NCBI GenBank assembly: GCA_016839055.1
Contig: JAEKNX010000001.1
Span: 367,693 to 431,692, forward strand
Origin: Spirochaetales bacterium
GTDB taxonomy: Bacteria > Spirochaetota > Spirochaetia > UBA9216
Length of the DNA stretch: 64,000 nucleotides
Direction: 5' to 3'
Below are positions 11,565 to 17,751 of the stretch, one piece after another. Below the pieces are notes generated by a model. The model searched no databases. It was not told where the DNA came from and saw only the letters and a list, made by a program, of their open reading frames with translations. The position numbers and the translations under genes are program-made. Each line of letters begins with the position of its first letter. Position 1 is the first letter of the stretch.

Positions 11565-12014
11565 ATGAATAAAAGTGAACTAATCATCATCGCTAAGAAT
11601 ATCCTTTCTGTGTCAAAAACTGCCGTATTAGCAACAACCGGAAGTGATCAAACACCCAGAATGAGGTGGATGTCGCCGGTATTTCTGCGTAATTATGAAA
11701 ATTACATCTATGCTGTCACTTCGCAGGTGTTTAACAAGACCGGAGATATTAAAAAGAACGGCAGAGTTCAATGGATGCTTCAGACATCGTCGCTCAGCCG
11801 GATTATTACCTTTGACGGGACAATGAACATGGTGGAGAATGTTTCACTGCGTGCCGAGGTCCTAGAGGCTCTTGGTTCGCGTCTCGAAACTTTCTGGACA
11901 ATTAATAAGGATCCGTCAACTCTCATAGTCCTCGAGACTGAAATTACAAGCGGAATGCTGTTCACGCCGGTTAAAGGACAGAAGGAGCTTGTCTCATTCA
12001 ATGAGGAGTCTTGA
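11565..12014 (+). CDS. Pyridoxamine 5'-phosphate oxidase-like flavin-binding protein
   Basis: The 149-residue protein resembles the small split-barrel PNPOx-like family (general stress protein 26 type), with an ATTGSDQTPRMRWMSP strand pair near residue 23 and LIVLETEITSGMLF near the end. These proteins usually bind FMN, F420 or haem; which one is used here cannot be read. I chose the ATG at 11565, five bases after AGAAGGAG, over an upstream GTG at 11559 that overlaps that site. The pdhA start follows the stop codon by one base, so the two are translationally coupled. Confidence 0.78.
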   Translation: MNKSELIIIAKNILSVSKTAVLATTGSDQTPRMRWMSPVFLRNYENYIYAVTSQVFNKTGDIKKNGRVQWMLQTSSLSRIITFDGTMNMVENVSLRAEVLEALGSRLETFWTINKDPSTLIVLETEITSGMLFTPVKGQKELVSFNEES

Positions 12015-12015
12015 T

Positions 12016-12978
12016 ATGATCAATGATAAAAAGATATTCCTGACGCTTCTGGCGGACATGCTCCTCGTTCGAAGATTTGAAGAACTTGTAGCCCGTATGT
12101 ACGGCCTCAGAAAAATCGGCGGGTTCTGTCATCTTTATATAGGCGAGGAGGCCGTAGCCGTAGGCGCGATCTCTAGTTTAGATCTAAAAACTGATTATGT
12201 TATCGCGGCCTACAGAGACCACGGACACGCCCTTGCCTGCGGGATGGACCCGGGTGCTGTAATGGCGGAACTCTATGGGAAAGAAACCGGATGCAGCAAG
12301 GGAAAGGGCGGTTCCATGCATATGTATGATGCTGGAAAACATATGTTCGGCGGCAACGGAATTGTCGGCGGGCAGATACCGGTGGCCGCAGGCCTGGCCT
12401 TCAAAATAGCCTATCGGGAGGAAAAGGGAGTAGTCCTCTGCTTTTTCGGAGACGGGGCTATTCATCAGGGCAGTTTTCACGAAAGTGTTAATCTTGCTAA
12501 AATTTATAATTTACCAATTATTTTTATTTGTGAGAACAATCAGTACGGAATGGGTACAGATTTCAGACGTGTTTCCGCTATTGATGATTTATCCGCAATG
12601 GGGAAGTCATACGGAATAGACGGAAAGCAGGTAAACGGTATGGATGTTCTTGAAGTGTATTCGGAAGTTAAGAAACTCTCTGATGAGATTAAAAAGAAGC
12701 CCGGTCCGGGATTTCTTGAGATTAAGACTTACCGCTATAAGGGCCACTCAATGAGCGACCCGGCAAAATATCGGACCAAAGAAGAGCTTGCCGAATACCG
12801 TCAGCGAGACCCTATCGAACTTCTAAAAGTCAGGATGATTGATGCGGGACAGCTCGATGAAGCTGAGTATAAAAAGATGGATGATAAAGCAAAAAAAATC
12901 TCTCAGGATGCCGCCGATTTCGCTGAATCAAGCGCGCAGCCTGCCCTTGATGAGATATATAGCGATATATTTGCCTGA
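12016..12978 (+). CDS. pdhA: 2-oxoacid (probably pyruvate) dehydrogenase E1 component, alpha subunit
   Basis: The 320-residue protein is the thiamine-diphosphate-binding half of the E1 heterotetramer that decarboxylates a 2-oxoacid and transfers the acyl group to lipoyl-E2. The thiamine motif GDGAIHQGSFHESVN is present near residue 155, followed by FICENNQYGMGT. The conserved phosphorylation-loop-like YRYKGHSMSDPAKYR is also seen. The start ATG at 12016 has GAGGAG upstream, overlapping the end of the preceding gene. Acetoin dehydrogenase E1 is closely related, so the substrate is assigned as pyruvate from context (citrate synthase nearby). Confidence 0.92.
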   Translation: MINDKKIFLTLLADMLLVRRFEELVARMYGLRKIGGFCHLYIGEEAVAVGAISSLDLKTDYVIAAYRDHGHALACGMDPGAVMAELYGKETGCSKGKGGSMHMYDAGKHMFGGNGIVGGQIPVAAGLAFKIAYREEKGVVLCFFGDGAIHQGSFHESVNLAKIYNLPIIFICENNQYGMGTDFRRVSAIDDLSAMGKSYGIDGKQVNGMDVLEVYSEVKKLSDEIKKKPGPGFLEIKTYRYKGHSMSDPAKYRTKEELAEYRQRDPIELLKVRMIDAGQLDEAEYKKMDDKAKKISQDAADFAESSAQPALDEIYSDIFA

Positions 12979-12988
12979 GGAGGCAGAG

Positions 12989-13963
12989 ATGGAATTGACA
13001 GTCAGAGAAGCATTAAATCAGGCGATGAGCGAAGAGATGAGGCGGGATAAGGATGTTTTTCTAATTGGGGAAGAAGTAGCTCAGTATGACGGGGCCTATA
13101 AGGTCAGCCAGGGCATGCTCAAGGAGTTCGGCCCCAAGCGGGTGATAGACACACCTATTACCGAGGAGGGGTTTACCGGACTCGGGATAGGAGCAGCCAT
13201 GGCGGGGCTTCGTCCGATTGTCGAATGGATGACCCTGAATTTCTCCCTCATGGCCATCGATCAGGTAATAAACAACGCGGCTAAGACCCGCTATATGTCA
13301 GGCGGTCAGTTTGCGTTTCCAATAGTATTTCGCGGCCCAAACGGTCCGGCGGAATTTCTCGCTGCCCAGCACTCACAGGCGCTGCAATCACTTTTTGCCC
13401 ATATTCCGGGGCTTAAGGTCTGCGCGCCGTCAACCCCGGCGGACGCGAAGGGGATGCTGAAGAGCGCAATTCGGGACGATAATCCGGTAATATTTCTCGA
13501 GGCTGAGATGATGTATTCATGGAAGGGAGAAGTCCCCGACGAGGAGTATTTGGTTCGACTGGGCGAAGCGGCGGTTAGAGCAGAAGGTCAGGATGTGACT
13601 ATAGCCGGTTTTTCAAAACCCATGCGTAATATACTGGAGGCTGCCGAGGCTTTAGAGAAAAGAGGAATAAGCTGCGAGGTCATTGATATCCGTTCTATAA
13701 GACCGCTGGATGAAGAGACAATATTTAGCTCGGTCAAGAAGACAAATAGAATTGTGGTAGTCGATGAAGCCTGGCCATTTGCCAGTGTAGGCTCTCATAT
13801 AAGTCATCTTGTTACTACAAACTGTTTCGATTACCTCGATGCTCCTCCGGGACTAGTGGCAATGGAGGATGTTCCCATGCCTTATAATAGGGAGATGGAA
13901 AAACAGGTATGTATCAGCACTGATAAAATTGTAAAAGCCGCTGAGTCGGTATTATACCTTTAG
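12989..13963 (+). CDS. pdhB: 2-oxoacid (probably pyruvate) dehydrogenase E1 component, beta subunit
   Basis: This 324-residue subunit completes the E1 active site. Family features are EALNQAMSEEMRRD at the N-terminus, the VFLIGEEVAQYDGAYKVSQG stretch, DTPITEEGFTGLGIGAA near residue 55 and the C-terminal transketolase-like domain with VIDIRSIRPLD. The ATG at 12989 follows GAGGAGG by five bases, ten bases after the pdhA stop. An in-frame extension upstream to 12839 would overlap pdhA heavily and lacks the conserved start, so it was not used. Confidence 0.93.
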   Translation: MELTVREALNQAMSEEMRRDKDVFLIGEEVAQYDGAYKVSQGMLKEFGPKRVIDTPITEEGFTGLGIGAAMAGLRPIVEWMTLNFSLMAIDQVINNAAKTRYMSGGQFAFPIVFRGPNGPAEFLAAQHSQALQSLFAHIPGLKVCAPSTPADAKGMLKSAIRDDNPVIFLEAEMMYSWKGEVPDEEYLVRLGEAAVRAEGQDVTIAGFSKPMRNILEAAEALEKRGISCEVIDIRSIRPLDEETIFSSVKKTNRIVVVDEAWPFASVGSHISHLVTTNCFDYLDAPPGLVAMEDVPMPYNREMEKQVCISTDKIVKAAESVLYL

Positions 13964-13973
13964 GAGGAAGAAA

Positions 13974-15224
13974 ATGGCTGAAAAATTATATATGACTGCT
14001 CTGTCTCCTACAATGGAAAGAGGCGTAATTACCGAATGGCACAAGACTGATGGCGATGCCGTGAAAAGCGGAGATATCCTTTGTGAGGTCGAAACAGACA
14101 AGGCTGTGATGGAGTATGAGGCCGATTTTGATGCCGTTCTTTTGAAGATTATCGTGAACGCAGGGCAGAGCGCCGCAATAGGAGACACTATAGCAGTCTA
14201 TGGAGAGGCCGGTGAGGACTATTCACGGCTGATACTATCAGATGTGACAATTATCGAGGAGCCAAAAGCCGCCAAAACGGCGAGCAAAGATATAAGCGGC
14301 CTGGATGCAAAGCAGGATGAACCATCTGAACCATCGACGGAGAAAAAGAAGGCAGCCCCGGGCGGAAGGATTAAATCATCTCCTCTTGCAAGGATGATAG
14401 CAGCCGATCTTCATATCGATCTGTCTACAATAGAAGGAAGCGGGATTGACGGAAGGATTATTAAGCGCGATGTAGAGCTCTCAGCCCCCTCAGGGATTCA
14501 GCCCGAAGCCTCAGGCATATATGAACCTCCCGCCTCAATGGTGAAACCTGTGGGAGGAATGCGCGCTTCTATAGCAAAAAGACTCTCAGCCTCTATGTTT
14601 AGCGCACCTCACTATTACCTTAGCATTCAGGCTGATATGAGCACCCTAATGTCGGCAAGGAAAAATATAGTAGAGCGCAGCGGAAAGAAGGTTTCTATCA
14701 ACTCCTTTCTTATAAAGTTATCGGCCGCGGCCCTGAAAAAACACCCGGTAGTTAATTCTACCTGGGAGGGCGATAAAATAAGAGCTTTCGGCAGCGCCGA
14801 CATTGGTTTTGCCGTCGCCCTCGATGACGGACTGATTGCTCCGGTAATTAAAAACTGTGAGGCCAAAGGCATTCTATCTATCGATGAGGAATTCAAGACT
14901 CTGGCCGGAAAAGCGAAAGAAGGAAAACTTGTTCCCGCGGATTACGTCGGGGCGGGCTTTTCAATCAGCAATCTCGGCGGTTTCGGGATAGAAGAGTTTA
15001 CAGCGATAATTAATCCCCCGGGTTCGGCCATCCTTGCTGTCGGAGCAGTAATAAAGCAGCCTGTTGTATTAACTGATGAAAGCGATATGGACCTTGTTGT
15101 GGTAAAACCGATGATGAAGATGACTCTGTCCTGTGACCATCGGGTTATTGACGGAGCGGTAGGCGCTGCCTTCCTCTCAGATTTAAAACGGATGATAGAG
15201 GAGCCGATAGAAGCTCTGATGTAG
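13974..15224 (+). CDS. pdhC: 2-oxoacid dehydrogenase E2 component (dihydrolipoamide acyltransferase)
   Basis: The 416-residue E2 has one lipoyl domain (1-80; lipoyl lysine K43 in ETDKAVMEYEA), a linker, a peripheral-subunit-binding domain near 130-165 (SSPLARMIAADLHIDL...GRIIKRDV) and a catalytic acyltransferase domain ending with the active-site motif DHRVIDGA near residue 388. It lies ten bases after pdhB behind AGGAGG. No E3 (dihydrolipoamide dehydrogenase) gene follows, so E3 must be encoded elsewhere. A small decayed copy of an E2 C-terminus lies at 17842..17904. Confidence 0.94.
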   Translation: MAEKLYMTALSPTMERGVITEWHKTDGDAVKSGDILCEVETDKAVMEYEADFDAVLLKIIVNAGQSAAIGDTIAVYGEAGEDYSRLILSDVTIIEEPKAAKTASKDISGLDAKQDEPSEPSTEKKKAAPGGRIKSSPLARMIAADLHIDLSTIEGSGIDGRIIKRDVELSAPSGIQPEASGIYEPPASMVKPVGGMRASIAKRLSASMFSAPHYYLSIQADMSTLMSARKNIVERSGKKVSINSFLIKLSAAALKKHPVVNSTWEGDKIRAFGSADIGFAVALDDGLIAPVIKNCEAKGILSIDEEFKTLAGKAKEGKLVPADYVGAGFSISNLGGFGIEEFTAIINPPGSAILAVGAVIKQPVVLTDESDMDLVVVKPMMKMTLSCDHRVIDGAVGAAFLSDLKRMIEEPIEALM

Positions 15225-15254: not shown

Positions 15255-15284
15255 TTGCATTTCCGTGCTTTTACTTATTATAAT
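15255..15284 (+). promoter_or_regulatory. Strong promoter for the coaX leader
   Basis: TTGCAT (15255..15260) and a perfect TATAAT (15279..15284) are 18 bases apart. Transcription would begin near 15291, about 175 bases before coaX, leaving a long leader. Confidence 0.7.
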
Positions 15285-15290
15285 GATATC

Positions 15291-15465
15291 GCAGGCATCG
15301 ATTCCGTTGGTACGGTGACCTGTGTAAGAACAGAGGAACACTTTGAACGGACTTGATCAGGAGTCAACTGCTCCTATCTCTGGAGGACAGGTACCGTAAA
15401 TAGCATCACCCAAAGGGCGACATCCATTCTTACCATATCCAAATATTCCAAAACCGGAGGCATCA
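15291..15465 (+). ncRNA. Structured leader RNA (riboswitch-like) or small RNA ahead of coaX
   Basis: A long imperfect hairpin is evident. TACGGT (15311..15316) pairs with ACCGTA (15393..15398) and ACCTGT (15318..15323) with ACAGGT (15387..15392), forming a 12-bp helix with one bulged G. Inside it, CAGAG (15331) pairs with CTCTG (15378), and AGGAG (15359) with CTCCT (15371) around a seven-base loop. CCGT (15304) can also pair with ACGG (15312), which would disrupt the main helix and suggests a switch. No terminator T-run precedes the GGAGG ribosome site at 15456, so any control is more likely at translation. It matches none of the riboswitch, SRP, RNase P or tmRNA motifs I know. Confidence 0.5.
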
Positions 15466-16248
15466 ATGATTCTATGTCTTGATATCGGCAACAGTCAGAT
15501 TTATGGAGGAATATTCAGTGATGATGAGCTGAAATTCGATTTTCACAGAGTCACAAACGGTGCCATCTCCTCAGATGAGCTAGGTCTTTTTCTAACTTTG
15601 CTTCTTCGTGAAAACGGCTTTAATCCTGCTGATGTTACCGCGGTGGCTTACTGCTCGGTTGTTCCGGATCTGAATCCTGTTCTTGAACGCTGCTGCCTCA
15701 GATATTTTCGAACTGAGCCGTTCAGCCTTCAAGCCGGGGTTAAATCCGGGTTGAAGATACGCTACTCGAATCCTCATGAACTGGGGTCGGACATGATTGC
15801 AAACGCTATAGCTGCGGTCGATCTTTATCCGGACAGAGATCTTCTCATTTTTGATTTTGCAACCGCGACAACTGTTTGCGGAGTAAATAAAGAGGGAGAA
15901 TATCTCGGGGGAGCGCTTATGCCGGGAATAAAGATTACCATGGAAGCACTTTCGAAAAGAACTGCCCGGCTTCCTGAGGTGGAGATCATGAAACCCCGCA
16001 GAGTGTGCGGCAAATCTATTGTTGATGGAATTCAGTCCGGTCTTTATTACGGGAATTTGGGAATGGTCAAAGAATTGAAAAGCAGAATGCGGCGTGAGCT
16101 TTATCCGCAGTCCGAACCGGTTGTAATAGCCACCGGAACCTATGCGGAACTTTACGAGGATGAGGGCGTCTTTGATGACCTCATTTCCAATCTTGTTCTC
16201 CTTGGTGTCCACAAGGCGTTCCTCCTTAATAACAGGGAGGGCCTATAG
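15466..16248 (+). CDS. coaX: Type III pantothenate kinase
   Basis: The 260-residue enzyme phosphorylates pantothenate in the first committed step of CoA synthesis. It begins with [14 protein letters not shown], the DxGN phosphate-binding motif of the type III (CoaX) family in the ASKHA superfamily. Further motifs are [13 protein letters not shown] near residue 106, DFATATTVC near 130 and GGALMPGIK near 145. GGAGG precedes the ATG by five bases. pdxS follows after 31 bases, so CoA and PLP cofactor genes share a transcript that starts with the structured leader. Confidence 0.95.
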
Positions 16249-16279: not shown

Positions 16280-17188
16280 ATGACAAACAATTCTAACTGG
16301 ACTCAAAGACAGAGCGACCGATGGAGGACAAACCTCGGACTCGCTGAGATGCTCAAAGGCGGTGTTATTATGGATGTGGTAACACCTGAGCAGGCAAAAA
16401 TTGCAGAGGACGCAGGGGCTTCGGCAGTAATGGCTCTTGAACGGGTACCGGCGGATATCCGCGTAGAGGGAGGGGTTGCAAGGATGTCGGATCCGGGGAT
16501 GATTCTCGGAATTCTGGACAGTGTTTCCATCCCTGTGATGGCTAAATGCAGAATAGGTCACATTATTGAAGCAAGGATTCTCGAAAGTCTCGGAGTTGAT
16601 TTTATTGACGAAAGTGAGGTGCTGACTCCAGCTGATGACCGGTATCATGTTGATAAAAGTGTTTTCGAGATACCCTTTGTATGCGGCTGCCGTAACCTTG
16701 GAGAAGCTCTCCGAAGAATCGGCGAGGGTGCTGTGCTGATTCGCACGAAGGGAGAAGCCGGAACAGGCGACATTGTAGAGGCTGTAAGACATATGAGAAC
16801 CCTGATGGATGACATCAGACGCATCAGCGTTATGCCACAAGACGCCCTAATGGCCGAAGCAAAAGAGATGGGCGCACCTTATGAACTAATCCTGGAAACT
16901 GCCAGGTTGGGCGCTCTGCCTGTTCCGAACTTTTCAGCGGGAGGAGTAGCTACGCCGGCCGATGCGGCTCTTATGATGCACCTTGGAGCACAGTCGGTAT
17001 TCGTCGGTTCGGGTATATTTAAATCAGGGGATCCGGAAAAACGCGCCAAGGCTATTGTCGAATCGGTTGCATATTATGATGATTATGACAGGCTCGCGAA
17101 AATTTCAGAGAATCTCGGAGAGCCAATGACCGGAATAGGGATGAATGAACTTCCGGTTGAGAAGCGGATAGCCGGGAGAGGCTGGTGA
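16280..17188 (+). CDS. pdxS: Pyridoxal 5'-phosphate synthase subunit PdxS
   Basis: The 302-residue (beta/alpha)8 lyase makes PLP from a pentose phosphate, glyceraldehyde 3-phosphate and ammonia. Conserved stretches are [38 protein letters not shown] with the catalytic lysine, and [11 protein letters not shown]. The ATG at 16280 has AAGGAG nine bases upstream and gives the normal family length; an in-frame start inside coaX was rejected. The stop overlaps the pdxT start. Confidence 0.97.
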
Positions 17189-17751
17189 GCGCGCGGCCTG
17201 TAGGAGTTCTTTCGCTTCAGGGAGCCTTTGAAAGACACAAGTCCATAATTGAGTCCCTCGGGCGGGAATGCCGGTTGATAAGAACACCCGAGCAACTGGC
17301 AGGACTCGGAGGGCTGATAATCCCCGGCGGTGAAAGTACTGTAATTGGAAAACTGATGAAAGCCGGAGGCCTTCTTTCGGCTATCAGAGATTCGGCGGCA
17401 GATGGTCTTTCAATTTTCGGTACATGCGCCGGCCTTATTCTGCTGGCAAATGAAGTTACAGGAACACCGGTTGACGGTCTTCATCTTCTTGATGTAAGGG
17501 TACAGAGAAACGGATACGGACGGCAGAAGGAAAGTTTCAACTCAAAACTGATATTCAGAAAAAATGAGATTCAGTCTGTCTTTATAAGGGCACCCAGAAT
17601 TATTGAAACGGGACCCAATGTTGAAGTAATCTGCAGGATGGATGATGAGGCTGTCCTTGTCAGGCAGGACAGAATACTTGCTGCAGCCTTTCATCCTGAA
17701 CTCACAGATGATCCCGCTGTGCATCGTTATTATGTAGAAGAATTATGTTGA
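17185..17751 (+). CDS. pdxT: Pyridoxal 5'-phosphate synthase glutaminase subunit PdxT
   Basis: The 188-residue class I glutaminase supplies ammonia to PdxS. The nucleophile is the Cys of [11 protein letters not shown] near residue 79, with the His-Glu pair in FHPELTDD near 170. [12 protein letters not shown] and [11 protein letters not shown] are family signatures. It starts with GTG at 17185, overlapping the pdxS stop by four bases (GTGA), which couples translation of the two subunits. Confidence 0.97.

Follow-up and report, generated by a model that had tools for sequence, protein, structure and literature searches.

The 64,000-nucleotide stretch of DNA analysed here, which we call the window, carries coaX, pdxS and pdxT on its forward strand. 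coaX (15466-16248) encodes a type III pantothenate kinase (Pfam PF03309, 1.8e-60; NCBIfam NF009855 above cut-off), pdxS (16280-17188, start codon by inference) the lyase subunit of PLP synthase (PF01680, 8.9e-103; NF003215 and TIGR00343 above cut-off) and pdxT (17185-17751) its glutaminase subunit (PF01174, 4.1e-51; TIGR03800 above cut-off). A likely Shine–Dalgarno sequence of coaX, GGAGG, lies on the same strand at 15456-15460. Further upstream is a forward-strand sigma-70-type promoter (15255-15284), in which a perfect −10 box (TATAAT, 15279-15284) follows TTGCAT (15255-15260) after an 18-nt spacer. The −35 box matches at only three of six positions, which explains why the promoter is absent from the list of the automated scan. 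From this sequence, transcripts are expected to begin near 15291, about 175 nt upstream of coaX, as a preliminary description of this DNA had placed it; the promoter proposed there is present, with a weak −35 box. Reading by eye, we observed a similar TTGNNN...TANNNT layout just upstream of the first hairpin in many relatives. The leader is immediately preceded, on its own strand, by genes resembling those for the E1 alpha, E1 beta and E2 components of pyruvate dehydrogenase (11989-15224), a CoA-consuming complex. The genome also has a second coaX, 30% identical, at a locus common to its genus mates (G000:C15:100631-101326, L005); a copy of the window-type coaX was not detectable in the genus mates. 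This genome may have acquired the window operon, or selectively retained it.

The leader contains two hairpins on the forward strand, P1 (15292-15322) and P2 (15348-15396), which are built alike: reading inwards, the outer stem is followed by a 3'-side bulged A and a 5-bp helix, which a 5'-side bulged A separates from a short inner stem. P1 consists of the outer stem CAGG/CCTG, the 5-bp helix CATCG/CGGTG between bulged A15301 and A15318, an inner stem and a GTTG loop. P2 reads CGG ACTTG (A15356) TC ... GGA CAGGT (A15393) CCG. The length of its loop varies among relatives, and in the window sequence and fold indicate an extra inserted hairpin, AGGAG-TCAACTG-CTCCT (15359-15375, forward strand). 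The 3' side of the loop carries a Shine–Dalgarno-like GGAGG (15382-15386, forward strand); comparison of its placement identifies it as the ribosome-binding site of the gene in most relatives, whereas P2 of the window has no start codon behind it.

The preliminary description called this leader strongly structured, a claim to which folding energy lends no backing. The 175-nt leader folds at −44.5 kcal/mol, compared with −41.5 ± 3.8 kcal/mol for shuffled sequences (z = −0.81), and 41 of 200 shuffles were as good. The minimum-energy fold of 15291-15465 includes P1 and P2, without the long base proposed earlier. Single-sequence evidence by itself would be a weak case; the importance of the fold rests on covariation, not on stability.

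Relatives of the leader and covariation of its hairpins

A search of genus and family DNA for similarity to the leader returned only the window itself, and the closest coaX genes within the genus represent a different paralogue that lacks the motif. We gathered coaX loci across the phylum and then read their upstream regions, many of which hold GACTTGATCC..GGAGGACAGGTACTATG; the window counterpart is GGACTTGATC...GGAGGACAGGTACC. The motif CTTGAT..GGACAGGTRC was found in about 80 Spirochaetia relatives. A pattern search matched 64 of 297 genomes of the class and, within two families, 15 of 26 and 68 of 245, whereas a reversed control pattern gave few or no matches (0 in the 26-genome family set and 2 in the 245-genome set). 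Thirteen of 95 pattern matches stood at unrelated genes and were dropped as chance, leaving 82 loci. The genes downstream are panB, coaX, DUF2520 (PanG-like) genes and flavoprotein genes of the CoaBC/CoaC kind, labels that were taken at most loci from the first 46 residues and confirmed with Pfam for one example of each kind; about 40 relatives stand upstream of panB (PF02548). Four genomes have coaX-pdxS-pdxT behind a tandem hairpin leader, namely that of the window, G031 (L228), G508 (L229) and G446 (L086).

We aligned 43 leaders, including that of the window, after shortening the linker to 12 nt (alignment A1), and the tandem pair of hairpins was present in all of them. RNAalifold, run on the 43 sequences without an input structure, returned exactly P1 and P2 with their bulged A's, and 12 of the 21 pairs showed compensatory changes. 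Across the alignment 92.8% of the cells were paired, and there were 168 double-change cells compared with 49.3 ± 5.6 after shuffling (none of 500 shuffles was as high), a count that kinship among the sequences somewhat inflates. The check that had been proposed for this leader, covariation in related spirochaetes, thus came out positive. The covariation score was 0.484, and sliding the partners lowered it to 0.114 or less. Double changes occurred in 11 of the 12 pairs of the P1 helix, whose 5-bp part uses many different pair types among relatives, and of the 82 loci 59 have A-U and 19 have G-C as the outer pair of P2. The P1 positions were picked by pairing score, whereas P2 required no such choice. 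When the P1 search was repeated on dinucleotide-shuffled upstream DNA, a score of at least 9 was reached in 1.5% of shuffled compared with 63% of real sequences, and the P1 score of the window was reached by none of 1,000 shuffles (p < 0.001).

The A's at alignment columns 10, 29, 54 and 91 are invariant throughout A1, with a 5-bp helix between them in both hairpins; for P1 this invariance is partly by construction, because its candidates had to carry them. Sequence conservation in P1 is largely confined to the bulged A's and one C-G pair. The P2 core CUUGAU..GGACAGGUAC is nearly invariant, part of it having been selected for by the pattern search. By inspection, the middle helix of P1 has 4 bp instead of 5 in the coaX-pdxST leaders of G031, G508 and G446. 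Two coaX-pdxST leaders outside A1 (L016 and L056) have G at column 91, the equivalent of A15393. A DUF2520-type leader (L082, G010:C278:135-209) has a P1 nearly identical to that of the window and a likely start codon inside its P2 loop (CTTGATCCTATGGGACAGGTACC). A kink-turn reading of P1 was dropped, as the bulged-A register gave compensatory pairs throughout.

A covariance model, R1, built on the 43 sequences with the window as one of them, scored 15292-15397 at 35.0 bits, the sole credible site in the window and in the genome. The flanks examined of the two panB genes of this genome held no R1-type leader. A search of 393 genomes of the phylum, with strict filters that lose weak matches, gave no R1 match outside the class.

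A probable divergent variant of the pan RNA

The preliminary description knew of no well-established riboswitch for CoA, pantothenate or PLP, but an RNA element is on record at such genes: the pan motif (Rfam RF01749) was described by Weinberg et al. 2010 (PMC2864571) from three phyla, with Spirochaetota unmentioned in the text. Rfam scans gave the window no credible match, RF01749 being absent at E ≤ 10, so the identification was made through relatives. RF01749 matched L138 over its full length at 22.3 bits and five of 20 leaders at 21.4-29.3 bits (model positions 1-92). When 4,227 Rfam families were scanned, RF01749 accounted for five of eight matches; the E-values count all 4,227 families, and pan-only E-values would be some 4,000 times smaller. 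The RF01749 register agreed with ours for P2 in all matched leaders and for P1 in L138, L238, L239 and, roughly, L243. In the reverse test, R1 recovered L170, L172, L173 and L174, classical pan hairpins that RF01749 detects in the class, with E-values of 0.002-0.03. The gene context also fits: panB in the relatives is in keeping with the panB, panC and panD genes that follow pan RNAs, and coaX-pdxST in the window takes up the step after pantothenate. The window leader is very likely a divergent tandem pan RNA of the RF01749 type. No tandem relative tested attains the RF01749 gathering score of 36.2 bits, and the class assignment is therefore to a divergent variant; the RNA class is not new, and the leader is not a curated Rfam member.

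Single classical pan hairpins stand upstream of ecfA-ecfT-ecfS-coaX operons (PF12822, PF02361 and ECF ATPases) at L169-L174 and L221-L226. Their position suggests that the ECF S component (PF12822) behind them imports pantothenate or a precursor.

Competing folds, signal and alternative explanations

Within the window leader, 15312-15323 can pair with 15387-15397 (both forward strand) in a competing helix of 11 pairs and a bulged G (−16.9 kcal/mol) that is mutually exclusive with P1 and P2. Mononucleotide shuffles of both strands reach this energy at a frequency of 0.0006. The helix corresponds to the 12-bp base of the preliminary description, which is present in this form although the conserved structure consists instead of two short covarying hairpins. 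The small CCGT-TGGT-ACGG hairpin described with it is the tip of P1, and its mutual exclusion with the long base holds. The same strands pair at −10.9, −10.9 and −7.8 kcal/mol in three other coaX-pdxST leaders, compared with a mean of −3.6 in 52 other leaders, and in the whole family we found no conservation (mean −3.86, against −3.68 with swapped partners). When the coaX start is included the competing fold is slightly favoured (−47.8 versus −45.6, a gap of about 2 kcal/mol), and the predicted probability of the helix flips with the 3' end chosen. Because it is strong mainly in coaX-pdxST leaders, the competing helix may be their switch, and the predicted folds make a two-state switch in this branch plausible. 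A pairing of NGU[N]AYC (P1) with GUACN (P2) as a family fold was dropped when a partner-swap control was not significant, and the 5' strand of P1 showed no above-chance pairing with the coaX start region (P = 0.11).

In 57 of the 82 loci no more than 12 nt separate the end of P2 from the start codon, and the loop and inner stem of P2 hold the Shine–Dalgarno sequence; in 18 further loci a start codon comes close after P2 and the gene starts later, usually behind a very short ORF. Most relatives combine a Shine–Dalgarno sequence in P2 with an immediately following start codon, which makes feedback on translation by a signal from late in the CoA pathway the most likely mode of control; the folded P2 should block initiation. 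This mechanism is not directly transferable to the window, as no start codon follows P2 there. The coaX-pdxST leaders have a separate ribosome-binding site for the gene downstream of P2, and control would for that reason probably run through the competing helix joining the 3' strands of P1 and P2. Eight Treponema-type coaX leaders (L028, L029, L035, L131, L158 and L160-L162) have a conserved 5-codon ORF directly after P2, 60-200 nt upstream of coaX, in the versions MTHQT*, MTLQT*, MTHKT*, MTIQT* and MTTLT*; L125 and L130 have a 7-codon ORF overlapping the coaX start (ATGA). Such short ORFs may couple P2 opening to coaX translation.

Except for pdxST, the associated genes serve pantothenate synthesis, its conversion to CoA or, by inference, its uptake. 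Since the regulon spans the ECF uptake operon, panB, DUF2520, coaBC/coaC and coaX, a pathway-wide signal such as CoA is easier to reconcile with it than a single early intermediate, and we favour as the common signal a late pathway product, CoA for example, or a protein that detects it. PLP, one of the ligands suggested earlier, is unlikely, most relatives preceding panB, coaBC/coaC or DUF2520 genes. We consider it probable that the tandem pan RNA with which the coaX-pdxS-pdxT mRNA begins acts in cis as a feedback element within the pantothenate/CoA regulon. An abundant signal would stabilise P1 and P2, and in most relatives the folded P2 would then hide the Shine–Dalgarno sequence directly upstream of the start codon and turn translation off; our confidence in these particulars of signal, direction and switching is evenly divided. 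Part of the riboswitch logic first proposed survives, with a structured cis-acting leader, CoA and pantothenate genes, covarying pairs and mutually exclusive folds, but without the long hairpin as conserved structure.

What binds the hairpins is a separate matter from their identity as pan RNA. Weinberg et al. 2010 (PMC2864571) proposed a dimeric protein for pan because the motif consists of simple tandem hairpins. The two subunits of an RNA-binding repressor responsive to CoA or pantothenate would each occupy one hairpin, a reading that contests only a metabolite as the signal. It is a serious contender that falls somewhat short of being probable: one hairpin alone stands upstream of the ecf operons and P1 shows scant conservation, but we identified no candidate regulator gene in the present analysis, and the near-invariance of the P2 core, partly a product of pattern selection, also argues against it. 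In the literature searched, neither a ligand nor a binding protein has been described for pan RNA since 2010, and we found no established CoA or pantothenate riboswitch; CoA and pyridoxal phosphate have been named as missing riboswitch ligands (Breaker 2022, PMC9971707). More speculatively, the spirochaetal pan RNAs could be a natural CoA (or phosphopantetheine) riboswitch, with the coaX-pdxST branch using the same aptamer and a second switch that pairs the 3' strands of the hairpins, thereby co-regulating PLP synthesis with CoA; we consider this rather unlikely. The spirochaetal leaders would be useful for deorphaning pan RNA, and those with the ribosome-binding site inside P2 are compact natural constructs suited to binding tests.

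It is improbable that a new riboswitch class works here through the long hairpin with its 12-bp base. The stability of this hairpin, the pairing of its strands in other coaX-pdxST leaders and its slight advantage with the coaX start included count in its favour, but it is unconserved in the rest of the family, excludes both covarying hairpins and swings in predicted probability with the chosen 3' end. The leader's own promoter and its length near 180 nt would suit an independent small RNA or another 6S RNA, yet about 80 relatives stand directly upstream of pan/coa genes and often contain their ribosome-binding sites, and the automated scan found nothing resembling a terminator between leader and coaX. 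A 6S match, named earlier as a possible refutation, was absent at the leader in Rfam scans (RF00013), the genuine 6S RNA of the genome lying at G000:C33:276469-276647 (63 bits), which excludes 6S; we regard an independent small RNA as very unlikely. Chance structure in an ordinary untranslated leader fits the single-sequence shuffle result but is refuted by the covariation and shuffle controls, and its probability is negligible. The leader is real and very probably regulatory.

Among known RNAs, 6S RNA (RF00013) resembles the transcribed leader in length and differs in the points just given. SAM-II and preQ1 are metabolite riboswitches with translational control. Judged by predicted fold, most relatives resemble them as short elements whose 3' arm carries the Shine–Dalgarno sequence directly upstream of the start codon, but the spirochaetal leaders are tandem hairpins only, and no pseudoknot was found in them. 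The closest likeness is to pan RNA, with which the leaders share the tandem hairpins found in most of its members, a stem broken by two conserved bulged A's into outer (3 bp), middle (5 bp) and inner (2-3 bp) parts, the P2 core GAUC...GGAC.GG.AC and a position upstream of pantothenate genes. They differ from RF01749 in scoring below the Rfam threshold, in the P2 middle helix (ACUUG/CAGGU, where the Rfam consensus has CCUGG/CCGGG), in the extra P2-loop insert of the window and in a gene set that includes coaX, coaBC/coaC, DUF2520 and coaX-pdxST besides panB.
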